A stretch of 64,000 nt of DNA from Chlorobiota bacterium. Its GTDB lineage: Bacteria > Bacteroidota > Ignavibacteria > OLB7. A model generated the notes under the pieces. The model was given only the letters and a program-made list of their open reading frames with translations, was not told the DNA's origin and ran no database searches. This document shows, in pieces, positions 7,782 to 32,651 of the stretch. How positions within the stretch are numbered: position 1 is the first letter of the stretch; each line of letters opens with the position of its first letter. The stretch covers positions 1-64,000 of the forward strand of contig JAEUSP010000065.1 in the NCBI GenBank assembly GCA_016788565.1, written 5' to 3'. Position numbers and translations under genes: made by a program.

Positions 7782-9542
7782 ATGACCATGCGTTCATTCA
7801 GTTCCGCCGCACGTATTGCGGCAATCGTTCTCTTCTCAGCATTGCTGACCGTGCCCGCCGCTGCACAAGGGAGCGCGTTAGATCGCGCCCGTGCTGCCGC
7901 CAGCGAAGGGGATTTTACCAACGCAGCACGCTTGTACGACGAGGCCGTTAAAGAAGCACCAAAAGATGAAACCGTGCTTACCGAAGCCGGTGATGTAAAT
8001 ATGGAACTGGAGCGGTACGCCACCGCCCGCGATTACTACAAACGGGCAGTGGATCGCGACAGCAAAAATGAGGTGTTCAACCGGAAATATGCGCTATCCC
8101 TTTCGGCATTGGGAAGCCATACCGAGGCGGTTGAGGCTGCCCGCAAAGCAATGAAAAGCGATGATGGCTCCCTGGAAAGCAGCATGACGCTGGGCCAAGT
8201 GCTGATCAACGCCGGCAAGGACTCGTTGAACACAGCGGAGCTTACCATCCTGACCGCCAGCAAAAAATTCCCCAACGCACCGGAACCGCAAACAGCACTG
8301 GGCGATCTTTATTTTGCCCGTGGCGTGTACGAGCTTGCGCAGACCTACTACGAAAAAGCCCTATCGCTTGATGCCAAGCTGATTGATGCGCGGGTTCGGC
8401 TTGGGCGTTCCTATCGTGAAATGGCCATCCGCTGCCCCGACCTTGAGTGCGCCAAACCATACTACTCCAAAGCCTTGACTGAGTACAACGATGTCACGGT
8501 TCGCGCCCCAAAAAACGCCCGTGCATGGCTGGAGCAAGGGGAGATTTTGATGTTGGCACAGGAGTATGAAAAAGCTGGCCAATCGTTCACCAAGTATGTT
8601 GAGCTTCGGCCCGAGGATCCGCGTGGTGACATCTTGCTTGCACGCGCCGCCTACGAAGGACGCTTTTACTTGCAAGCAATCGAACCATTGGAGCGGGTGC
8701 TTTCGCGAAACGACTCCATCTCCAAGGAGTTTGCCAGCCGCGCCCACTTGATGCTTGGGCTATCGTACATGGCCGACAAGAAGTACGACAAAGCACGCGA
8801 TGCCTACGCCCGCGTGCCGGACGCAATGATGCAGCGTAAGGATCGCAACTACTACGCCTCGGCAATCCTGACCTCCGGTGGTGACACTGCCAAGTCGCTC
8901 AGTATCTACCGCCAACTGCTGGAAGAAGACCCGAACGATTGCAGTCTCAGTTTGCAGTTGGGGAACATGTACTACAAGATGAAGAAGTACGCCGATGTGG
9001 TAGAAGTCTTCAGCAAACGGATTCAGAACTGCCCGAACGAGCCGAAGTACACGTCATATCTGTTCATTGGGTTGTCGCAGTTTTCCTTGCAGCAGTATGC
9101 TCAGTCGGCCACGTCGCTTCACCAAGCCATTGCTGCCGACAGTTCCGAGGCCGATGGCTACTTCTGGCTGATGAACGTCTATGCAAAAGCCGACTCTATC
9201 AACAAGGCCGCAGAAGTTGGGCGGGTGTTCACCGCTCGCAGCTTTGATGAAACGGTGAAGGAGAACGCAAGCAAGCTATCAACCGCCTATTTCTTTATGG
9301 GCTTCGATAAGTTCAACGAAGGGAAAAACAAGAAGAACAACAAAGCCTTCACCGAGGCGATTGCCTACTTCGAACGTGCCGCCAAACTGAACCCAGATAA
9401 TGGCCAGAACTACCTGTTCATGGCGTACTGCCACCAATATCTGAACGAAAAGGAGGGGGCCTGCAAGAACTACCGCCAAGCATTGAAGCTGGACCCAAGC
9501 AACGCAAACATCAAGAAAAATCTTTCCGATTTGGGATGCTGA
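7782..9542 (+). CDS. Secreted/periplasmic TPR protein
   Basis: This 586-residue protein starts at ATG 7782 (another ATG lies 2 codons on). A signal peptide ends near AAAQG (residues 24-29). The rest is almost entirely tetratricopeptide repeats; recognisable units include YKRAVDRDSKNEVFNRKYALSL, YYEKALSLDAKLIDARVRLGR, YFERAAKLNPDNGQNYLFMA and YRQALKLDPSNANIKKNLSDL. It is a scaffold for protein-protein contacts in the periplasm. It lies between the TonB-associated genes and the DUF1573 genes and has its own terminator. Confidence 0.88.
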   Translation: MTMRSFSSAARIAAIVLFSALLTVPAAAQGSALDRARAAASEGDFTNAARLYDEAVKEAPKDETVLTEAGDVNMELERYATARDYYKRAVDRDSKNEVFNRKYALSLSALGSHTEAVEAARKAMKSDDGSLESSMTLGQVLINAGKDSLNTAELTILTASKKFPNAPEPQTALGDLYFARGVYELAQTYYEKALSLDAKLIDARVRLGRSYREMAIRCPDLECAKPYYSKALTEYNDVTVRAPKNARAWLEQGEILMLAQEYEKAGQSFTKYVELRPEDPRGDILLARAAYEGRFYLQAIEPLERVLSRNDSISKEFASRAHLMLGLSYMADKKYDKARDAYARVPDAMMQRKDRNYYASAILTSGGDTAKSLSIYRQLLEEDPNDCSLSLQLGNMYYKMKKYADVVEVFSKRIQNCPNEPKYTSYLFIGLSQFSLQQYAQSATSLHQAIAADSSEADGYFWLMNVYAKADSINKAAEVGRVFTARSFDETVKENASKLSTAYFFMGFDKFNEGKNKKNNKAFTEAIAYFERAAKLNPDNGQNYLFMAYCHQYLNEKEGACKNYRQALKLDPSNANIKKNLSDLGC

Positions 9543-22044: not shown

Positions 22045-23178
22045 TTAAAATTTTATTGATGTAAGTGCAGTTTTTGCACCAATTCCTATACTGAAGTTTT
22101 GCTCTCCTATTAGATACCCATATACTCCAAGCTCTAACTGAATAATGTTGGGGAGCTTATAGCCAATATGCCCGCTAAGTAAAGTACGGCTGTTGGGCAA
22201 AGTAGTGGAGTGTATGCCTATAGTTTGTACAACCGCATAGCAGACTGGAGAGAATTGATAGCTTACTGAAACGATAGGAAGCCCCTGGGTTGTTACCCCT
22301 ACTCTGCCTGCAATAGCACTACTATCTTTTCTGAATTCTATTCCCCCTAATCCAATAAATACATTCGACTTTTTTGAAACACTACGATGGTATTCAAACC
22401 CTGCCATGATGCTTAAATAGTGTTTTTTATTATCCACCAATTCTTCTTTGATTTTAGCTATGTGATCATTCATCTCCTTTGTAAGGGTATCAATAGATTT
22501 ACTAACACTGTCTATCTTAAATAAATATCTATTCATAGAATCAAATTTTGTACTGTAATCTGGAGAATGAGTAAAAGGCATTTTCAATTTTATTGAATCA
22601 AGTCGATCAATAATCGAATCCAATGGATTATTGTGTGAGTTGTCACTAATAATTTTGCTTTGATTCAATCTCTCAACATATTCACTTATACACTGAAGTG
22701 AGCTATCAAGGCTTTTTATCTGGCGTTCTTGGCGTTCGTATATGTTTTCTTGAGGGAAGACATAGGTTTGAAGCTGGTCATATAACTCTTGCCATTGATA
22801 AAGCAGACCGTATATATGGCTGTAGTTATTTGTTACGCCATAGATGTGAACACAAATGCTGTCATTTATTGTTATAAAGGAAATGACCTTATTAAGGATT
22901 GCTGCTTTATTTAAAGCAATAAATCGATTTAAAGAATTTGATTCTATTCTATTTTTCATTTGAGTTAATATATTTATAACGTGAGTTGTCTCAATACTAG
23001 CGCATTTTGAAATCTGTGTAGTACCCGTATTATCTATTTTTAAATGAGCATAATTTATAAGTTCGTTGCATCTTTTTATAATCTCATCATTGTAAGTCTG
23101 AATTAAAAATTGATTTGATTGACTCATAGCTGGTAATGCTATTAACAATAGTATGATGGTGTGAATAAGAATTTTCAT
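22045..23178 (-). CDS. Exported hypothetical protein (AT-rich cassette)
   Basis: This is a 377-residue protein of unknown family. A signal peptide is clear (MKILIHTIILLLIALPAMSQ). The middle (about 40-250) is helical with coiled-coil character (EYVERLNQS, IDRLDSIKLKM, SIDTLTKEMNDHIAKIKEEL). The last about 120 residues are Gly/Ser-rich alternating strands (FIGLGGIEFRKDSSAIAGRVGV, VSYQFSPVCYAVVQTIGI, LGVYGYLIGEQNFSIGIGAK), like a small outer-membrane beta-structure. It starts 3 bp after the stop of the membrane protein upstream, so the two form an operon. Base composition is markedly more AT-rich than the rest of the window, suggesting recent acquisition. Confidence 0.7.
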   Translation of the reverse strand: MKILIHTIILLLIALPAMSQSNQFLIQTYNDEIIKRCNELINYAHLKIDNTGTTQISKCASIETTHVINILTQMKNRIESNSLNRFIALNKAAILNKVISFITINDSICVHIYGVTNNYSHIYGLLYQWQELYDQLQTYVFPQENIYERQERQIKSLDSSLQCISEYVERLNQSKIISDNSHNNPLDSIIDRLDSIKLKMPFTHSPDYSTKFDSMNRYLFKIDSVSKSIDTLTKEMNDHIAKIKEELVDNKKHYLSIMAGFEYHRSVSKKSNVFIGLGGIEFRKDSSAIAGRVGVTTQGLPIVSVSYQFSPVCYAVVQTIGIHSTTLPNSRTLLSGHIGYKLPNIIQLELGVYGYLIGEQNFSIGIGAKTALTSIKF

Positions 23179-23181
23179 AGT

Positions 23182-24855
23182 CTATCTCCTCTCATTTTTT
23201 AAAATAGAATTAACAATGCTATTGGATTTGAGATCATCTCTAGAGCTATTCCCATTTATTCCAATAGCTGCAGTTGAATAAACAACAGAAGTAATTCGTG
23301 CTAATAGAAGATCATTTTGTTGCTTTGATTCAATTTTGAAAGAATTCAACGACTCACGAGTCTGATCAATCGCAGATATTAGTTTATCTAACTTTGTTTC
23401 GACGGATGCGAAATTTATTTCGACATTTTTAGGAGTATTATTGTTATAACTTTTATTGCTCAACCAGTGCATTAAGATTCCCGGCAAATACCACTGCGGC
23501 GCATTGATAATCGCCTCATACTGATCCTTTTTGCTGTCAATATTTTTGTTTTTTGCAGGATCGCTTGCTGGTTCAAAAAGCATAAGGAGCATTATTGCTA
23601 ACGTGATTAACCAAGCATCTACTGTTTGCACGCGCTTATCTTTTTGAGCTTGAGTAAGAAAAGTCTCTCCTCCTATTAATTTACGAGACCCATAACGTCT
23701 GCATTGGTAGCGGTAAAGAACCAAGGCTATCATCGGTATCAACAGCAACGCAATCCCACGCCACTGAACAAATCGAAGGGCATTTTGCATAAATGGCACT
23801 GTTTTCCCTGATCCTACGTCGCTATCTGTTATCACATTTTTTTTCGCTGTGTCTCCAATGGAAGCTGTGTTCACAGCTGGGGTAATAATTTTATTAAAAT
23901 ATTGACTATGATCTGTATTTAACAAAGCAATGTTAAATACAGCTGTATCTGAATTCTGATAACTCTGCGGCCGCATAAGTTCCGATGGATACCAAAGGAT
24001 GATAGCAATGATGCACAAGGCAAACCCACCAGCCAATAAGGAATTTCGACCACCCGGTCTAAATTTGTTTTCTGGAGCCTTCTTCTCGGAAGGAATTTTA
24101 GAAAAACGAATAAATTCGATAATAAACCAAAGTACACCAATCATAATTGCTGCTATCGCTATCCTATGCATTAATTTACTCCATGGTACAGCATAAAGCC
24201 CTATTGAAGCTAAGAGGACGATATTCATTATTAAAAATGGAACATGAAAAAGCAGATAATTTTTTCCATGAGCTACAAACTTAATATAGAGATAGTAGAT
24301 GGTAATCCCAGCCACAACAGTAGCTATTGTCGTGATGATTTCATGGGCAAAAAATGGTAAAACTATAATGAATCCTAAATAAATACTAATAATAATCAAT
24401 AATAGTGGCATCCGAATTTTAAACCAGTGAGTATAATAACTATTATTGTTACCAGGATTTTTATCTTGAGTATCTTGTGATTGTTCTTTCATCACAAGAT
24501 CAATATGCCAAAGAATAATCAGCAACATCGGCAAAGAGAAATAGAGTGCTGCAAACATCCGAAATGCCAGACCCAGATCTAAACCGAATGTCTCAGCCAG
24601 CCCTGCAGCTCCCTTGGGGACAAACGCTGTGAATCCTACAATTGAGAGTAAGGCCACCACGAATTTTTTCTGTAGCTCTTTTGATGACTCGTTAGCGATA
24701 ATTGCAGAAATGTTTTCATTCTGCAATGGCGTACTTTTAAAGGCCACCACGAATTTTTTCTGTAGCTCTTTTGATGACTCGTTAGCGATAATTGCAGAAA
24801 TGTTTTCATTCTGCAATGGCGTACTTTTAGGAGTAGTTTGTTGTTGGTTTCCCAT
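23182..24855 (-). CDS. Polytopic membrane protein of unknown function (AT-rich cassette)
   Basis: This 557-residue protein has about nine predicted membrane helices, for example FRMFAALYFSLPMLLIILW, PLLLIIISIYLGFIIVLPF, IAIAAIMIGVLWFIIEF, LAGGFALCIIAIILWY and WLITLAIMLLMLF. The cytoplasmic N-terminus contains a perfect 30-residue tandem duplication. The C-terminal about 90 residues have coiled-coil character (VETKLDKLISAIDQTRESLNSFKIES). It shows no transporter signature I know. It is in an operon with the exported protein downstream and shares its AT-rich composition. Confidence 0.7.
   Translation of the reverse strand: MGNQQQTTPKSTPLQNENISAIIANESSKELQKKFVVAFKSTPLQNENISAIIANESSKELQKKFVVALLSIVGFTAFVPKGAAGLAETFGLDLGLAFRMFAALYFSLPMLLIILWHIDLVMKEQSQDTQDKNPGNNNSYYTHWFKIRMPLLLIIISIYLGFIIVLPFFAHEIITTIATVVAGITIYYLYIKFVAHGKNYLLFHVPFLIMNIVLLASIGLYAVPWSKLMHRIAIAAIMIGVLWFIIEFIRFSKIPSEKKAPENKFRPGGRNSLLAGGFALCIIAIILWYPSELMRPQSYQNSDTAVFNIALLNTDHSQYFNKIITPAVNTASIGDTAKKNVITDSDVGSGKTVPFMQNALRFVQWRGIALLLIPMIALVLYRYQCRRYGSRKLIGGETFLTQAQKDKRVQTVDAWLITLAIMLLMLFEPASDPAKNKNIDSKKDQYEAIINAPQWYLPGILMHWLSNKSYNNNTPKNVEINFASVETKLDKLISAIDQTRESLNSFKIESKQQNDLLLARITSVVYSTAAIGINGNSSRDDLKSNSIVNSILKNERR
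24650..24829. repeat. Perfect 90-bp tandem duplication inside a coding region
   Basis: 24650-24739 and 24740-24829 are identical base for base. The unit encodes 30 residues (STPLQNENISAIIANESSKE plus flanks) and keeps the frame. Perfect identity means either a very recent event or an assembly artefact. Confidence 0.95.
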
Positions 24856-24904: not shown

Positions 24905-25909
24905 CTACCCCTCCGCAAACCCCCGCGGCACTTCGGGAAGTGTTGATAGGTCAAGTGCTAATTGCGTTTTGCCGCCGTCGGCAAGGGCGATTATGGTGAA
25001 GGCTCCGTAGGCGTAGCGTTCCAGTGTGGCTTGGCCATTTTTGGCGGTTACGGGAACTTTTGCTTGCGGGAAGGTGTGATGAACCAGAAAATAGACCCGC
25101 CCCTCAATCGGCTTCCCCGAACCAACCGGGGCTAACCTCACCCGAATATGATACCAGTCGGGATCGTCCTCATCCGCCTCAACGTTGGCAGTTAATGCCC
25201 GCTCCGAATTGGCCGCTGGCAAGTTTTTGAACTGATCTACCAACGCCCACGTGTCGTCGTCGGGATCAAGGTCGGGGGGCATTTTTATGCTGCGAATTAA
25301 TTGCTGCAATGCAGCATCGCTTGCCTCAGCCAATGGAGATTCTGGTTGCTCCATTGTATTTTTTATTTCTGGTGGTGCGGCTGCTTCCGTTGGCGTTTCC
25401 GTTGCCATTTCTCTGTTCAATGGCGCGGCAAACGATCGCTCCTCCGTTTTTCGCGCCCCTCCTGGCACTCCGCCAATTTCCCGCACCATCTGCGCTTCCC
25501 TTTTTACGGCGCGTGCGGCCTGAGCCGCCACACTGCTCACTTGCTCCTGCAAGCTGGATTGCGCTGTCTGAATTTTCTCCTGAATTTCCGTCTGAATTTT
25601 TTCTCGATTTTCCTGCGCCTCCTTTTGAACCGCTTGGGTCTGTATTTCTACCTTTTTTTCTAACTCCGTTGCCTGGGTTTGTACCTCCTGCTTCACTTCC
25701 TCCATTTTCCCCTCAATCAACTCCTTTAAATTCACCTCCACCCCGCCGGCCTTGAAGGATTTTAGATATGGAAGAATTGCCGCAAGCCCAGCCGCAAGCA
25801 GTAGGTAGATGCTGTTGCTCTGCAACGGGCGCAGCTCGTTCATCACCACCGTAGCAAGTGCCACGGCCATCAGTATCAACCCAAGCGTTTTGATGTTCAA
25901 TGGCTTCAT
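24905..25909 (-). CDS. Membrane-anchored coiled-coil protein with C-terminal pYEATS-like domain
   Basis: This 334-residue protein has two membrane helices near the N-terminus (about 8-24 and 33-49) and a long Gln/Glu/Lys coiled coil (about 60-140, with repeated KVEIQTQAVQKEAQEN-like heptads). A disordered linker follows, then a C-terminal beta domain at about 250-330: HIRVRLAPVGSGKPIEGRVY, FLVHHTFPQAKVPVTAKNGQ, AYGAFTIIALADGG. This pattern matches the prokaryotic YEATS-like domain known from TM-pYEATS proteins of caspase- and peptidase-containing conflict systems. Its start codon overlaps the stop of the metallopeptidase gene upstream (ATGA), showing tight coupling. It probably serves as the membrane sensor or anchor of the set. 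The domain call is by eye and should be profile-tested. Confidence 0.7.
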   Translation of the reverse strand: MKPLNIKTLGLILMAVALATVVMNELRPLQSNSIYLLLAAGLAAILPYLKSFKAGGVEVNLKELIEGKMEEVKQEVQTQATELEKKVEIQTQAVQKEAQENREKIQTEIQEKIQTAQSSLQEQVSSVAAQAARAVKREAQMVREIGGVPGGARKTEERSFAAPLNREMATETPTEAAAPPEIKNTMEQPESPLAEASDAALQQLIRSIKMPPDLDPDDDTWALVDQFKNLPAANSERALTANVEADEDDPDWYHIRVRLAPVGSGKPIEGRVYFLVHHTFPQAKVPVTAKNGQATLERYAYGAFTIIALADGGKTQLALDLSTLPEVPRGFAEG

Positions 25910-27807
25910 GCTTTATCCCCTTTTTTTGGGTTATTACTTTTCCTTCCTTTCTCGTGCATCCGTTTGGTCATGCCGGGGAGTGGGGCGCGGCGGCCGTTGG
26001 TTAGGCCCCACAGCGGTGAGGCTTTTGCGAACTCGCGGGCGTGTTCCAACCGCTGTTTGTTGAGCAAACTTTTGGAGATGATGTAGCGGATTTCTCCGGC
26101 AGGATCAAGGATGATGGTGGAGCCGCCAAAAAAACACCACGAGCCGTTGTCGTCCTGGACGGTGCGGCATTGGGTGACTTCGGCAACAAGATCGAACACG
26201 ATTACTCCATCGGGGCCAGCGCGGCGCGCAAGCCGGACCGACTCCACTTCGGGAAGGTCAACGGTATCGCTCTTAAGCCGTGGGTCGTTGGGGGGAACCA
26301 GCCCGAACTCCTCCATCAACTCTGGCTGCGTCACTAATTTCCCAATCTCACGGGCTTGCCGCTTCAACTCTTCTACGCTTGCGGGCCGGCTGGGGTCGCC
26401 ATCGAACTGCATTTTGGAAAAGCTGAGTGCTGCAATTGCCGGAATGGATTTCTGCGGGCCGCGCCAACAGAGTGCTTCCTCCGAAAGGTTCATCACTTCT
26501 TCGGGATAGATGCCGCGCCGGCGGAAGGCGGCAATCCATGCTTCGCGGTAAGCCCAGGGGTCGTCGGGGGCCAAGTCGCAGTCGGCGGTGATGACGGCGC
26601 GGAGGAAATCGCCGAACTCAATATCTACCGGCGGGCAAAAATCAATCGCCCGCACGCAGATGGTTTGGAATTGGCTGGCAAGGTCGCTGGCTTCTTCGGC
26701 CAGCACGTCAATCAGGTAGTGGGGGATTTGCCCGGCGGGAAGGATTCCGCTGCCGTTGGTTGCCAGCAGCAAGTAGCGGTCGGTTTTCCGTTTGAACAGC
26801 ACTAGGAACGCCTCGAACACCGCCGCCACCAGCACCGACCCAAGCTCGTGAGCCTCGGGGCCAGCATCGGTGTAGCTGCGCGGCTGCTGAACAATGCCAT
26901 CGGTGGTTTGTTCGGTAAGATCAATGGCGGTGCGGAGTGAGTTGACCCCGCCAAGCGCCCGCCCGAACTGCCCGGCAATCTCGGTCAGGAATTTTGCTTG
27001 CTCCAATTTCCCCCCCGATTTTTTCAACGCTTGGATCAGCACCTCACGGTAGGTGAAATGCTGGAAGATTGCCACCAGGTCGGCAAAGGCTTCGTGGAAG
27101 GCGGGGACGTCCTGGTTGCTGGGAAAGAAGAAGTGCGCCCGAAGCCCATCTAACAAAGCGTGGGTTACTTCGTGGGCGATGACATCGTGTGAAAGTGCGG
27201 TGAAAATTCTCCCGCTGGGAAGACCACCAGTGGCATTCTGGGTCGAAAAATATCCGAAGGCAATCTCGCCGTTCTCGTGGTCGTAGTAGGCGTTGGGGCC
27301 GTCAAACGCATGGGGCCGAATCCGTAGCCGAGCGGGGTCGGAGTTGCCGCCAGTTGTTCCCGACGGGGCAACGTCGTAACCCCAGGCAATGTCGCGCCCC
27401 AACGCCCGCCGGAACGCAGCGTGAACCAAGCTGCAAACGGCATACACCATCTGCTGGTGGAATCGTGGTTCGGAAAGTGAGGGGGGGAAGCCATCGGTGA
27501 TTAGCTGCTTGGGGTCATCCAAGTCGGCGGCTTGGTACTGCTCGCTGGTGGTGTCGTTGCGGTCATCCACCAGAAGCAGTTTCCCTTTTGGTCCCGGCTC
27601 TACTTCCTCGTAGGGGACGTTGACCGTGGCAATGGCCCCATCCAACCGCGAGACCGAGGGGTCCAGCGTGTAGATGCGGAGCGGGCGGTAGGTCGCGTCC
27701 CCCGGCTTGCGTTTGTAGGGGCGGGCATGAACCGCGCGTGCCACCCGCTCACCCAACACAAAGTTGGTTGGGGAATTGGCATGATGTTGTGCTTGATGAT
27801 TGTTCAT
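25906..27807 (-). CDS. Thermolysin-like (gluzincin) zinc metallopeptidase without signal peptide
   Basis: This is a 633-residue protein. The zinc site is H212-E213-V-T-H216, with the third ligand probably E239 in AFHEAFADL and Asp243 four residues on, as in thermolysin (E166/D170). It differs from secreted M4 enzymes in having no signal peptide or propeptide, so it is expected in the cytoplasm. The C-terminal half (about 400-630) is unfamiliar; it contains YPEEVMNLSEEALCWRGPQ, VQDDNGSWCFFGGSTIILD and a helix with KSLLNKQRLEHAREFAKAS. It starts 23 bp after the caspase-fusion gene and overlaps the pYEATS gene by 4 nt, which places it in the same operon. Confidence 0.8.
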   Translation of the reverse strand: MNNHQAQHHANSPTNFVLGERVARAVHARPYKRKPGDATYRPLRIYTLDPSVSRLDGAIATVNVPYEEVEPGPKGKLLLVDDRNDTTSEQYQAADLDDPKQLITDGFPPSLSEPRFHQQMVYAVCSLVHAAFRRALGRDIAWGYDVAPSGTTGGNSDPARLRIRPHAFDGPNAYYDHENGEIAFGYFSTQNATGGLPSGRIFTALSHDVIAHEVTHALLDGLRAHFFFPSNQDVPAFHEAFADLVAIFQHFTYREVLIQALKKSGGKLEQAKFLTEIAGQFGRALGGVNSLRTAIDLTEQTTDGIVQQPRSYTDAGPEAHELGSVLVAAVFEAFLVLFKRKTDRYLLLATNGSGILPAGQIPHYLIDVLAEEASDLASQFQTICVRAIDFCPPVDIEFGDFLRAVITADCDLAPDDPWAYREAWIAAFRRRGIYPEEVMNLSEEALCWRGPQKSIPAIAALSFSKMQFDGDPSRPASVEELKRQAREIGKLVTQPELMEEFGLVPPNDPRLKSDTVDLPEVESVRLARRAGPDGVIVFDLVAEVTQCRTVQDDNGSWCFFGGSTIILDPAGEIRYIISKSLLNKQRLEHAREFAKASPLWGLTNGRRAPLPGMTKRMHEKGRKSNNPKKGDKA

Positions 27808-27830: not shown

Positions 27831-30656
27831 TTAGAAGGGAAGGAGTAGCGAACGATGCTTCAGAAGGTCATCGCACCACAGCTCCGGGGTCTGGTCGACC
27901 CAACCGGTGAAGGATGTGGTGGTCAGCCGCAAAAACTCGGCATGGCTGATGTTGATTCCATACCTCGCCAGCACCTGCGTGGCGGCTATGGTGAAATCCC
28001 CGTGCCCGTAGTGCTCTTTTGCTGTTTGGCGTGATGTGCAGGCACTGAACAGGATGTCGCGCTGGGCGCGATCGTTGAGTGCCCGGATTCTTCCCGGTTG
28101 CTGCCTGCGGAACTCCGCTTTGTTAAGCTCCTTCATCTGCTGTGTGGCGACCATGAAGCGCGAGCGGCCCCCTGCGGATTGGCGCGCATTGCCCCCTCCG
28201 GCTCCGAACATCCGGTTGCTTGTGCCGGAGTGGCAGCAGTCAATAAAGTGAGTAAGATTCACCCTGGCGGGAAGGCCGGCGGTGATGGCGGCGATGTCGT
28301 CATCAAGGATGCAAGCGGATTGATCGAAATCAATCGGGACAAAGGCTTCATCCAGAGTGTCGCGCTCGTCTTGTGTGGCTTCGTCGCCATTATGGTCGGG
28401 TAGCTGTGTTCCATGCCCGGCAAATTGGAAGACGATGACATCGCCGGGTTGGCTGGTTTCCACAAGCTGCCGCAAGTTGGAAAGCATCCTCTGGCGTGTG
28501 GCGGCTTCGTCTGTCAGAAGGGTGACGTGGAATCCAAGCGATTCCAGCGTTTCTTTCCACCGTATGGCATCGGCAACGCAGCCGCGAAGTTGGAAGTTTC
28601 CACCATAGTTGTTGATCCCCACGCACAAGGCACGGCGATTCCCGGAAGCCGGGACGATGATGTGTGAGCCCGAACACCCAGCAGTGCCATGGAATGTTGA
28701 TTGCTGATGTTGTGAGCCCGAACACCCAGCAGTGCCATGGAATGTTGATTGCTGTTGTCCTGTTCCCAGCCGCGAGCCAATCACCCGCAAGCCTTCTGGC
28801 CAATCCACTTGCCCTTCCCAGGAGCGGAGCTTGTCGGAGTCAAAGTCGCGCTCGCGCGGGAAGCTCTGCTTGAGTGGGGCAGTATCGGGAAGGTCTATCA
28901 CGCGCCGCAGGATGCTTTCCATTGTTGGCGGGTCGTTGTCGAAATCGCCGTGCTTGGTGGCGCGTGTCGCGCTTCGTCCGCTGGTTGCTCGCGTTGTGGA
29001 CCAGATGACCTCGGCCGTGGGGGAAGCCGTGCCGCGCAGTCCAAACAAGTTCTGCAACGCACGGTCATTCAGCACCGATTCCTGCAAGCCCAGTATCGGC
29101 GTTTCCGGTTGCGGCTCAAGGGCGTGATGAATCAGGTAAAGAAGGGATTTCCGATAGACCACCATGCAGTTGTCGTCCCGCTCGAAATCCTTCTTCATGG
29201 TGAACATTGACAAGTGCTTCACCCCCGCGCCCAGTGTTCCCGCAAGCCGTGATTTGAACTCATCCACCCGAATTGCCGGGGCCATAAAGTGGAGTGTGCG
29301 GAAGGTTGGTCCACCCGCAGTGGCCAACACCGTCGGGACGAAGTGGGAGTGAAAAATGGAGCCTGCGCTGTGGCCAACGGCGTGCAGTTCAATATCCTTT
29401 GTGCCGCCGCTGGCTTGCAGGAATGCGGCTAACTGCTGGGCGGCGTAGTTGGCTCCGCCAGCGGGGCTGCTTGCCATCATCGCGTTCTGCTTCATCCCAG
29501 TCCAAATGCGCTCTCCGTACAAGGCGCGTGCGGCGCGTTCGATGAACGGGTCGGTGGTGTGATCCCAAAAGTCGCGCGTGCCACGGCCCGTTCCCGAAAT
29601 TGCCCGCTGGAGCATCGCGCCAACCGTCTCGAACAGCCCCGTTTCCCAAGCGAAATAGATGGGATAGACTCCGTTGGCAGTCCACCACGGGATGTGCGTA
29701 GCCGCAATTTTCAGGGCGTTCGATTCGCTGACCAACCCGCCGTGGGCGTAGAACAGGATGCGGAGTTTTTCTTTGGCAGCCTGGCGAGCTTTCAGTTCGG
29801 CGGGGAGGTGTTGTTGGAAGATTGCATCAACGTCACCCTTATCGGTGGTGAAGATGCCGGTGGAGGAAAGCATCCCCGATGTGAGGTTAATGACGTACCG
29901 GCGAAGCTCGGCCAACGTCTTGGAAGTAAGATCATCACCGCCACGCGAGCGGGTGTTGTTGCCGTAGCTTCCCCCTCGCGATAACGCCTGCAACGTCGGG
30001 TCTTCCGATTCCTTCAGCTCGGCATCGGCGGGGTCCAACCGGAAGCTCTGGGCCCTATGTTGTTTTGCCAGATCGAACACCTGCAAGGCTGATGGATCGA
30101 AGGGGCGGACCTTTGGTGACGATGGCGGAGCCGTGCGAATGGCAGCGATGTGAGCTTTAAGATCTTTCAACAACGCTGGCCGATCAATGCCGCTTCCCGG
30201 GCAGCTTTTTCCCGACATCTCGTTGTGGAAGCGGAGCTTATCGGGTGAAAGATTGAAGCAAAGTTGGATGCGGGCAATCAACTCCAACACCGATTTCCGC
30301 TGCAGGCCTTGCAGGACATCGCTGTCGAAGTCGCCGATCATCGCAATCATAAACGGCCCATGCGTTGCTGATCCGTTGTATCCGCTTGCGCTGGCGGGGG
30401 GGGCATCCCAGTTTCTGCCCAGCCAGATTGTGCCATCGGGGGCAACGGTGGCGTGCTGGGCGAAGTCGCTCCAGCCGTAGGTTTTTGTGTGGTGATCGTA
30501 CATGGCCACGATTGTCTGGTGGCCTTTGTACTGGCTGTGGTTTGGCCACCACGTGTGGTGCAGATGCACCTCGGTAATCTTGCGGCGGAATGGAAGATAG
30601 TGCTCAACAAACGCCGCAAGATCGGTTGGCTGTAGTTGCTTAAATGGAGGAGGCAT
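27831..30656 (-). CDS. Amidase_2/PGRP-like, alpha/beta-hydrolase and caspase-like fusion protein
   Basis: This 941-residue protein has three enzyme-like modules. (1) About 28-165: amidase_2/peptidoglycan-recognition fold, with zinc-ligand candidates in VHLHHTWWP and HNEMSGKSCPGSG. (2) About 300-520: an alpha/beta hydrolase with LRILFYAHGGLVSESN and the nucleophile elbow VGHSAGS (Ser430). (3) About 670-941: caspase-like peptidase (C14) starting RALCVGINNYG, with His748 in FAGHGTQ and Cys808 in DCCHSGT. The linker before the caspase carries a tandem 16-residue repeat. No signal peptide is present, so the protein is predicted cytoplasmic. It is followed by a metallopeptidase and a TM-pYEATS-like gene, and preceded by a metzincin gene. 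A role as a self-directed effector is inferred. Confidence 0.85.
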   Translation of the reverse strand: MPPPFKQLQPTDLAAFVEHYLPFRRKITEVHLHHTWWPNHSQYKGHQTIVAMYDHHTKTYGWSDFAQHATVAPDGTIWLGRNWDAPPASASGYNGSATHGPFMIAMIGDFDSDVLQGLQRKSVLELIARIQLCFNLSPDKLRFHNEMSGKSCPGSGIDRPALLKDLKAHIAAIRTAPPSSPKVRPFDPSALQVFDLAKQHRAQSFRLDPADAELKESEDPTLQALSRGGSYGNNTRSRGGDDLTSKTLAELRRYVINLTSGMLSSTGIFTTDKGDVDAIFQQHLPAELKARQAAKEKLRILFYAHGGLVSESNALKIAATHIPWWTANGVYPIYFAWETGLFETVGAMLQRAISGTGRGTRDFWDHTTDPFIERAARALYGERIWTGMKQNAMMASSPAGGANYAAQQLAAFLQASGGTKDIELHAVGHSAGSIFHSHFVPTVLATAGGPTFRTLHFMAPAIRVDEFKSRLAGTLGAGVKHLSMFTMKKDFERDDNCMVVYRKSLLYLIHHALEPQPETPILGLQESVLNDRALQNLFGLRGTASPTAEVIWSTTRATSGRSATRATKHGDFDNDPPTMESILRRVIDLPDTAPLKQSFPRERDFDSDKLRSWEGQVDWPEGLRVIGSRLGTGQQQSTFHGTAGCSGSQHQQSTFHGTAGCSGSHIIVPASGNRRALCVGINNYGGNFQLRGCVADAIRWKETLESLGFHVTLLTDEAATRQRMLSNLRQLVETSQPGDVIVFQFAGHGTQLPDHNGDEATQDERDTLDEAFVPIDFDQSACILDDDIAAITAGLPARVNLTHFIDCCHSGTSNRMFGAGGGNARQSAGGRSRFMVATQQMKELNKAEFRRQQPGRIRALNDRAQRDILFSACTSRQTAKEHYGHGDFTIAATQVLARYGINISHAEFLRLTTTSFTGWVDQTPELWCDDLLKHRSLLLPF
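28663..28758. repeat. Two 48-bp tandem repeats in the caspase-fusion linker
   Basis: Copies 28663-28710 and 28711-28758 differ at one base. On the coding strand each encodes 16 residues containing QQSTFHGTAGCSGS. They sit immediately before the caspase domain (residues about 633-665). Confidence 0.93.
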
Positions 30657-30770: not shown

Positions 30771-31829
30771 TTAGCCTTTTCGCACCTTCACCGTGTAGTT
30801 TCCGGTTCCGTTTGCCAGGTTGTAGTGGCGGATTTGAACAAGGTAGGTTCCGGGGAGCAGCGTGGCGATGATGCGGGCGTTCAGCCCAACGCCGCTGTCG
30901 TCGTCCTCGGCAATCAGTGCTGTTTGGCTGTTCGGGCCGAAGAGTTTCATCACCAAGTCGGTTGTGCCGCCGGTTTCCACCACATATTTCCCGGCTTTGG
31001 TCACTTTAAATCTGAACAAGTCCTCTTCCCCGGTCTTCCCGATGGATGCTGACTTTGGAACCCCACCTATTGTCAGCAGCACCGGCTCGGCAGTCGTGGC
31101 CGTTTTTGGATACGCTTGCGAGGAAGCGATGAACGATTTATCCAGCGCCGACAACACCGAGTTAGAGTGAGTGCTGATGCCATTAATCGTCCAGGAAGCA
31201 GGGAAGGCATAGAGCATGATGGAGTCGTGGTCGAACACCGTTCCCCGGATTTGGCTGGTGCTGTACTTGTTGATGACGTTGTGGCGGATGGTGGCTTCGT
31301 CCCAGAAATTTGGCGAGCCGCTCAGGTCGTGGATCACTTGAGCTTCGTTCCACTGAATCCCTCCGGTAGGACTTAGATGCTCATGCCCCAAGCCAATAGC
31401 GTGGCCAAATTCATGGGCTGCGGTTCCGCCGGTCATAAACCCGAGATTCATGGTGGGTTGGTTCAGCGGAATCCCCTGGCAGTCGGTGCCGACGTAGCTC
31501 CAGGCGCCATCGTTGGCGTTGAAGGCAATGCGGATTTCGGCATCGGGAGCATCGTTAAAATCGAAGTGCAGGTTGGCGTGTTCGGTCCACCAGAGTGCTT
31601 GCTGGCGGGCAAGATTTTTCTGGGCGGCGGTTCCCCCCATAAACCGCACCCGAAGCGTTGAGCCGTTAGGCCACATTTTGCTGATGACGATAATCGCACG
31701 CGCCCCGCCACCGCGCCCAATTGTTAGCTGGGGGCGCGCAAGTTCGTGGGCTGGCAAGCGGTCAATGCAGACGTGTGGGCGTTTGGTGGCTGCGGCTGCT
31801 GGTTTCTCTTTTCGTGTTGAAGCTGGCAT
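30771..31829 (-). CDS. Metzincin metalloprotease with C-terminal PPC-like domain
   Basis: This 352-residue protein starts at ATG 31829, which has a strong AAGGAGAGGGA site just upstream; the frame stays open for 91 more codons to 32102 but without a good start. The zinc motif is H139-E-F-G-H143-A-I-G-L-G-H149, the metzincin HExxHxxGxxH of astacin/matrixin-type proteases. The region before it (WPNGSTLRVRFMGG ... HANLHFDFNDAPDAEIRIAF) has the expected fold. From about residue 255 there is a pre-peptidase C-terminal (PPC) domain (GEEDLFRFKVTKAGKYVVET, DDDSGVGLNARIIATLLPGTY). No N-terminal signal peptide is visible, although PPC-bearing relatives are normally exported. It lies 114 bp upstream of the caspase fusion on the same strand. 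Confidence 0.83.
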   Translation of the reverse strand: MPASTRKEKPAAAATKRPHVCIDRLPAHELARPQLTIGRGGGARAIIVISKMWPNGSTLRVRFMGGTAAQKNLARQQALWWTEHANLHFDFNDAPDAEIRIAFNANDGAWSYVGTDCQGIPLNQPTMNLGFMTGGTAAHEFGHAIGLGHEHLSPTGGIQWNEAQVIHDLSGSPNFWDEATIRHNVINKYSTSQIRGTVFDHDSIMLYAFPASWTINGISTHSNSVLSALDKSFIASSQAYPKTATTAEPVLLTIGGVPKSASIGKTGEEDLFRFKVTKAGKYVVETGGTTDLVMKLFGPNSQTALIAEDDDSGVGLNARIIATLLPGTYLVQIRHYNLANGTGNYTVKVRKG

Positions 31830-32651
31830 GGATACTCCCTCTCCTTTGTGGTAAGGCGAAATGAATGGATCGTTATGATGGTGCGGCGTTGCTGCTAACC
31901 TTCGGGTGGTTGGCAGTTGATGGTGGCGTAGCCCGTTTGCCACAGTGCGTTTGTGGTACGCTTGGTGCTGTGGCAGGTGTATCGGCGGCGGCAAGGTGTT
32001 GTTGGGCGGATGTCGCTCCCCCAACGCGCCTTTGCCGTGGCGATAGATATGTGGTACAGGAAGGTCCGCAAGCATTCCAGCAACGGTTGCAACGGCGCGC
32101 AATCACTGCGGCGGCGTAGCCCCATTCAAATATCTGGGAATGCAAGATTGCCGGTTGGTGCAGAAAGACCGGCGCGCTAAACGGGTGAGTTGCGAGGATG
32201 GAATCGGGAGGAATTGCAACGCATCTTTGACATCTCTTTTGGCATCGCTGAGGCCACGCCCCAGCCAGCGTTGCCACCGCAACCCTGGTTGCAGGATGAA
32301 CTACAACCAGGGTCCTCCTTGCGGCGAATTCTCTTTTGTCACAACAGGCTTCCGTCAGCAGTGTAATACAGTAGATACGATGCCGGCAACCTTTAAACTG
32401 TGGTGCATCGGTTTGCCAAAGACGGAGCCGTTGCCAAAAGAGGAAGAAAAGAACTACTGCTCACGGAATAATCCCCAGCCAAGTATTTGAACAGAGTTTT
32501 AGCAGAGCCTTAGTGGTGGCGAAGAGCTATGCCCCAGTTTGCTGCGCTGTTCGTGGGTGCAAATTTACGGCATCAGCAAAGCCGATGCACCACGACAAAA
32601 CCACGACAAACGGAGCGGAGGGGGGGGGGGAGTATCTATCTCAGAAAAAAA
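31830..32651. other. Intergenic region between regulator and metzincin genes
   Basis: This stretch of about 820 bp should hold the promoter of the hydrolase locus. It contains a 9-bp inverted repeat (ccctggttg ... caaccaggg, about 32283-32314) without a T tract, and a run of about twelve G near 32620. The open frames across it (for example 32140-32490 plus, 31873-32277 minus) have no recognisable features and mixed reading direction, so I call no gene. Confidence 0.4.

Follow-up and report, generated by a model that had tools for sequence, protein, structure and literature searches.

The peptidase gene and the pYEATS gene analysed here appear to form the 3' end of a larger cassette, in which an astacin-like metzincin is followed by an amidase-hydrolase-caspase fusion, the peptidase and a membrane pYEATS protein (Table 1). 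We read this locus, at slightly better than even odds (a probability of about 0.55), as a regulated multi-hydrolase cassette for cell death or conflict, in which the pYEATS protein would be a lineage-specific membrane accessory; this function is predicted from sequence. The view of peptidase and pYEATS as an obligate pair is corrected: the conserved partner of the peptidase in loci of this type is the caspase fusion encoded directly upstream, at a distance of 23 bp, which the original prediction had overlooked in favour of pYEATS. The window, the whole stretch of DNA analysed, comprises 64,000 nucleotides of a contig from a Chlorobiota bacterium.

Table 1. Genes of the cassette and its flanks in the window
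Feature	Position	Strand	Basis or remark
TPR-LuxR type regulator, 568 aa	32652..34358	(-)	Pfam TPR_12 and GerE
Astacin-like metzincin with C-terminal PPC domain	30771..32102	(-)	Pfam Astacin 6e-9, PPC 4e-6
Three-enzyme fusion, 941 aa	27831..30656	(-)	Pfam, homologue alignments, fold search
Predicted M4-related cytosolic gluzincin, 633 aa	25906..27807	(-)	ORF and motifs; C-terminal extra region beyond ~residue 440
TM hairpin - coiled coil - linker - pYEATS protein, 334 aa	24905..25909	(-)	PF20305 and TM segments
Two low-GC (33-37%) genes, one multi-TM (557 aa)	22045-24855		Directly downstream of the pYEATS gene

Gene order and the three-enzyme fusion

The genes for the TPR-LuxR regulator, the astacin-like/PPC protein, the fusion, the peptidase and the pYEATS protein follow one another in this order on the same strand, and the order is kept in G001, a second species of the same genus, where the regulator shares 80% identity. 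The astacin-like gene is the first of the apparent operon and the TPR-LuxR protein possibly regulates the cassette; a scan for promoters and terminators gave fewer sites than shuffled sequences. In Kovacikia, too, a homologue of the astacin-like protein is encoded close to the caspase-peptidase pair (L006, L089). The window's astacin-like protein carries the metzincin HExxHxxGxxH motif, and its best NCBIfam match, "beta-glucuronidase AbsR1", bears a name that may mislead (157 bits against a cut-off of 650). At the other end, the two genes downstream of pYEATS were rejected as operon members on account of their low GC content and their absence from G001, and this stretch is probably a recent insertion. 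Near the start of its multi-TM gene there is a perfect tandem duplication of 90 bp (24650-24829, 2.0 copies, 100%), either a recent duplication or an assembly effect.

The fusion protein consists of a PGRP/Amidase_2-like domain (residues ~4-169), an alpha/beta hydrolase (~251-555) and a caspase (~672-938), and its catalytic residues are intact. The caspase domain matches Pfam C14 (2e-25), its fold resembles metacaspases and GSU0716 (Foldseek, E ~1e-14), and the His-Cys dyad formed by H748 and C808 is present in 26/26 homologues. Residues S430, D495 and H569 of the hydrolase are invariant among homologues of the fusion, 21 of the 26 of which match Amidase_2; the PDB search returned PGRP and T7 lysozyme. 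Residues H31, H33, H34, H68 and C152 of the amidase domain are kept in 23-25 of 26 rows, and the zinc ligands are probably among them. In the comparison with the EACC1-caspase system, NF047832 scores 31.4 against a cut-off of 140. The linker preceding the caspase domain contains a tandem repeat (28658-28758, 48-bp unit, 2.1 copies, 96%), a stretch that the congener's fusion protein lacks. At a further locus, L162:2058-8499 (G420), the gene after an amidase-hydrolase-caspase fusion encodes an LCAT-like lipase-CHAT protein where the M4-like peptidase would be expected.

Antibacterial effectors that are injected into other cells typically carry amidase, lipase-like and protease domains and lack signal peptides, and such a role has been proposed for protealysin (PMC9505478). 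Read in this way, the cassette would encode an effector set delivered into other cells in interbacterial competition, with the pYEATS-TM protein providing immunity. Neither the T6SS sheath (PF05943) nor a phage-like sheath (PF04984) is encoded in G000 or G001, which speaks against injection; moreover, no delivery domain was found and most homologues have no candidate immunity gene downstream. We regard an injected effector set as very improbable.

The peptidase and its relation to family M4

The active-site residues named in the original prediction are correct: the motif H212-E213-x-x-H216 (HEVTH from residue 212) is followed by E239, within HEAFAD, and by D243, and these residues, together with H320, are identical in 37/37 homologues. 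H320 could be a second catalytic histidine, perhaps equivalent to H231 of thermolysin. It had also been claimed that the peptidase has neither a signal peptide nor a long propeptide, and this was borne out. The first 60 residues contain no hydrophobic stretch (maximal Kyte-Doolittle mean over 15 residues, 0.37), all 68 unfused homologues stay at or below 1.2 at the N-terminus, and no PepSY/FTP propeptide is present, the HExxH motif beginning at residue 212 as against 341-531 in classical long M4 enzymes. As a control, 23/25 classical M4 proteins of the same phylum reach at least 1.6 for N-terminal hydrophobicity; the remaining two (343 and 359 aa, in L144 and L147) are short proteins of the protealysin type, which pass the Pfam M4 model. 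With these controls a secreted M4 identity is ruled out, and the family-wide lack of a signal peptide argues for a cytosolic location. The statement that M4 peptidases are normally secreted has a known exception in protealysin, an intracellular M4 whose operon also encodes its inhibitor (PMC9505478); a cytosolic M4 is therefore unusual, yet precedented.

The assignment to family M4 itself requires qualification. Like thermolysin, the peptidase presents the motif order NAxx...HExxH...E...D and a later conserved histidine, and hhalign aligns its family with classical M4 proteins over 236 columns (E=1e-5) with a probability of 82%, which is moderate, being below the usual 95% level. Unlike the thermolysin family, it lacks the signal peptide and the PepSY/FTP propeptide and is mostly missed by Pfam M4: the curated catalytic-domain model PF01447 does not match the window peptidase, and the Pfam M4 models match only 2/37 homologues, marginally (best E=0.0014), missing the other 35. 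The Pfam, NCBIfam and PADLOC models all miss the family, and phmmer/hmmsearch comparisons with the PDB returned only sub-threshold matches to neutral protease and aureolysin. A confident AF2 model (pLDDT 87.6, pTM 0.91) gave nothing significant in Foldseek searches of the PDB and viral libraries, with no thermolysin or M4 match. Since neither the curated models nor Foldseek match M4, despite the motif order and the hhalign result, we call the protein M4-related rather than an M4 member; the sequence data support a cytosolic gluzincin whose tie to M4 is one of distant homology, and in this sense the original description as M4-like can stand. If this is true, a large peptidase family outside the curated models is added. 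For residues ~478-580 the top Foldseek hits, weak and below significance, are NTF2-like domains (orange carotenoid protein, Tim44, epoxide hydrolase), and the modelled region is possibly a ligand-binding domain.

Partners of the peptidase and of pYEATS in other genomes

With a profile of the peptidase, at least 562 encoding loci were recovered from the genome collection. The best 80 for the window protein were kept and, together with plasmid and phylum hits, give the 93 loci examined, so that the counts below cover close to moderate relatives; genes were called by codon usage, with results that agreed largely with the annotation of two plasmid loci. Three arrangements recur. In type I (37/93 loci, many phyla) a caspase or caspase fusion lies directly upstream on the same strand, mostly at 25 bp or less or overlapping; in type II (43/93) an MBL-fold hydrolase gene lies directly downstream, and among these loci 25 have a subtilase (S8) fused N-terminally to the peptidase and six have a patatin gene upstream; in type III (7/93) an M43 metzincin lies upstream, separated in six of the seven by a gene of ~110 aa. 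Of the few loci left without a label, most lie at the end of a contig or next to genes that are broken or miscalled, and in the Kovacikia peptidase homologue at L006:7872-9798 an apparent frameshift near 9022-9266 divides the gene in two. On the peptidase tree the partner labels change nine times, as against 45.9 when the labels are shuffled, with none of 200 shuffles as low, and type III forms a single clade with full support. The peptidase would seem to be the part that stays constant across a wide family, while the second protease varies, being a caspase here and a subtilase or an M43 metzincin elsewhere.

The distribution of the family bears on a reading in which the enzymes serve house-keeping proteolysis or developmental autolysis, unrelated to conflict, and degrade damaged or storage proteins. 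Such a role would agree with the nearby TPR-LuxR regulator and with the scarcity of known defence genes near caspase-type loci, where PADLOC recognised seven families, with one member each, among 78 neighbouring proteins. The peptidase is very patchy in occurrence, however, being found in 2/61 relatives and in 6/395 genomes of the phylum; homologues are carried on plasmids and the gene tree differs from the species tree, all of which make a house-keeping function improbable. Enrichment in defence islands was not seen at caspase-type loci; some type II loci lie near defence genes, including Hachiman and a Pycsar cyclase.

The pYEATS protein was described in the original prediction as a TM coiled-coil protein translationally coupled to the peptidase, and these points hold. 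Its pYEATS domain scores 29.2 bits with PF20305, above the gathering score of 26.9, and TM-like segments lie near residues 3-22 and 34-52; by the positive-inside rule both ends of this hairpin would be cytoplasmic, in the compartment of the peptidase. Both reading frames are present as claimed and the pYEATS start codon overlaps the peptidase stop by four bases (ATGA). Because G001 retains the arrangement of the genes and an identical -4 overlap, with protein identities of 83% and 72%, the overlap is beyond chance and translational coupling is supported. An overlap kept in two species, two N-terminal TM segments joined to a pYEATS domain, and the precedent of an intracellular M4, protealysin, encoded with its inhibitor (PMC9505478) would suit the inner-membrane complex of the original prediction, taken as a dedicated one in which pYEATS is the obligate partner or inhibitor of the peptidase, as in protealysin-emfourin. 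The locus survey does not bear this out, since pYEATS follows the peptidase at only 2/93 loci, the window and G001, so far in this genus alone, and in 30 of the 34 type I loci that allow the test, no gene on the same strand lies close downstream of the peptidase. Within the sample of 395 genomes of the phylum the peptidase occurs in six and pYEATS in nine, both only in the window genome, and pYEATS(-TM) genes are also present where the peptidase is absent, namely in G002, a member of the window genome's family, and in eight further phylum genomes. We consider an obligate complex rather unlikely, and pYEATS as a conserved partner of the peptidase is rejected by the survey and the phylum sample; the outcome that the original prediction itself named as refuting, a pairing that is not conserved, has largely come about.

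The surroundings of pYEATS elsewhere point in another direction. In L122, from another family of the class, a pYEATS-TM gene adjoins a papain-alpha/beta-hydrolase fusion, accompanied by a PLAT-domain protein and a muramidase; between the hydrolase domain of this fusion and the one in the window's caspase protein the identity is 33% (E=2e-40). The hydrolase is present in 6/390 phylum genomes and pYEATS in ~9/395; both occur in two, and in both they adjoin (Fisher p ~0.007, an approximate value from samples that overlap without being identical, on as few as two cases). It may be, as far as gene neighbourhoods indicate, that it is hydrolase-cysteine-protease fusions, and not the peptidase in itself, with which pYEATS-TM is associated; two separate loci place pYEATS by the same alpha/beta-hydrolase-cysteine-protease architecture, which, if true, makes its role directly testable. 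Elsewhere a TM-coil-pYEATS gene lies near patatin (L119) or near an Hsp90-like gene (L120). Similar small TM proteins of 92-95 aa are encoded near pYEATS-TM at L119:5741-6019 and L122:3709-3996 and are possibly a further component of pYEATS systems. On a Methylorubrum plasmid (L002:11471-12865) a SIR2-pYEATS fusion lies near an S8-M4/MBL pair, on the opposite strand.

Proposed mechanism and known systems

In the regulated cassette that we favour, the enzymes would be held inactive in the cytoplasm until a trigger, perhaps phage or other invaders, which pYEATS-TM might sense at the inner membrane, leads to caspase activation through (auto)processing. Caspase and metallopeptidase might then process one another or shared targets, and hydrolase and amidase would act on lipid and cell wall, resulting in self-digestion or arrest. 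The pYEATS protein, as a lineage-specific accessory, may anchor or gate the complex at the membrane, in an amount that ATGA coupling would match to that of the peptidase. A regulated proteolytic cascade fits because the one cytosolic operon holds several enzyme classes with intact active sites, the second protease is exchanged across clades, the spread is patchy and plasmids carry homologues. Against it count the scarce known defence near type I loci, the lack of an NTPase switch in the operon and the absence of a thermolysin fold among the Foldseek matches; in addition, an amidase without a signal peptide would need a route to the peptidoglycan. More tentatively, with the chances somewhat against it, the survey may have outlined an undescribed and widespread bacterial proteolytic-cascade system, in which a constant cytosolic M4-like gluzincin is joined, through fusion or a common operon, to a second protease that can be exchanged (caspase, subtilase, M43 metzincin) and to envelope-attacking hydrolases, with pYEATS-TM added in some lineages to act as a sensor at the membrane.

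Among known systems, protealysin-emfourin of Serratia proteamaculans resembles the present case in having an M4-related zinc peptidase without a signal peptide, intracellular and accompanied by a short operon partner gene; loss of the inhibitor has been linked to toxicity (PMC9505478). Unlike protealysin, the window peptidase belongs to a family of larger proteins with an extra C-terminal region, missed by the curated M4 models and partnered by a protease, and the gene partner in the window encodes a TM-pYEATS protein rather than an emfourin-type inhibitor. The pYEATS and YLATT-pYEATS membrane proteins (PF20305, PF20303) share with the window protein an N-terminal TM region, a coiled coil, a C-terminal pYEATS domain and hydrolase neighbours; the window protein differs in its two-helix hairpin and in having no match to YLATT, whereas the protein of G002, a genome without the peptidase, does match YLATT. 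The pairing of caspase and alpha/beta hydrolase is known from bacterial conflict systems of the VMAP and EACC1 type (Kaur et al., eLife 2020, PMC7159879), which the cassette resembles, at the domain level, in coupling these two enzymes within a multi-component operon and in the predicted intracellular release of effectors by proteolysis. The window operon contains no MoxR-vWA, VMAP or EACC1 component, nor was an NTPase switch of the described caspase conflict systems seen in it; where a single-TM EACC1 would stand 5' of an N-terminal caspase, the caspase is here C-terminal and the upstream gene astacin-like. Unlike in those systems, a PGRP-like amidase is joined to caspase and hydrolase in one protein, and the gene for an M4-like peptidase comes next; this modular pairing of two proteases of different catalytic classes would, if true, join the few bacterial systems in which proteases control death or conflict.
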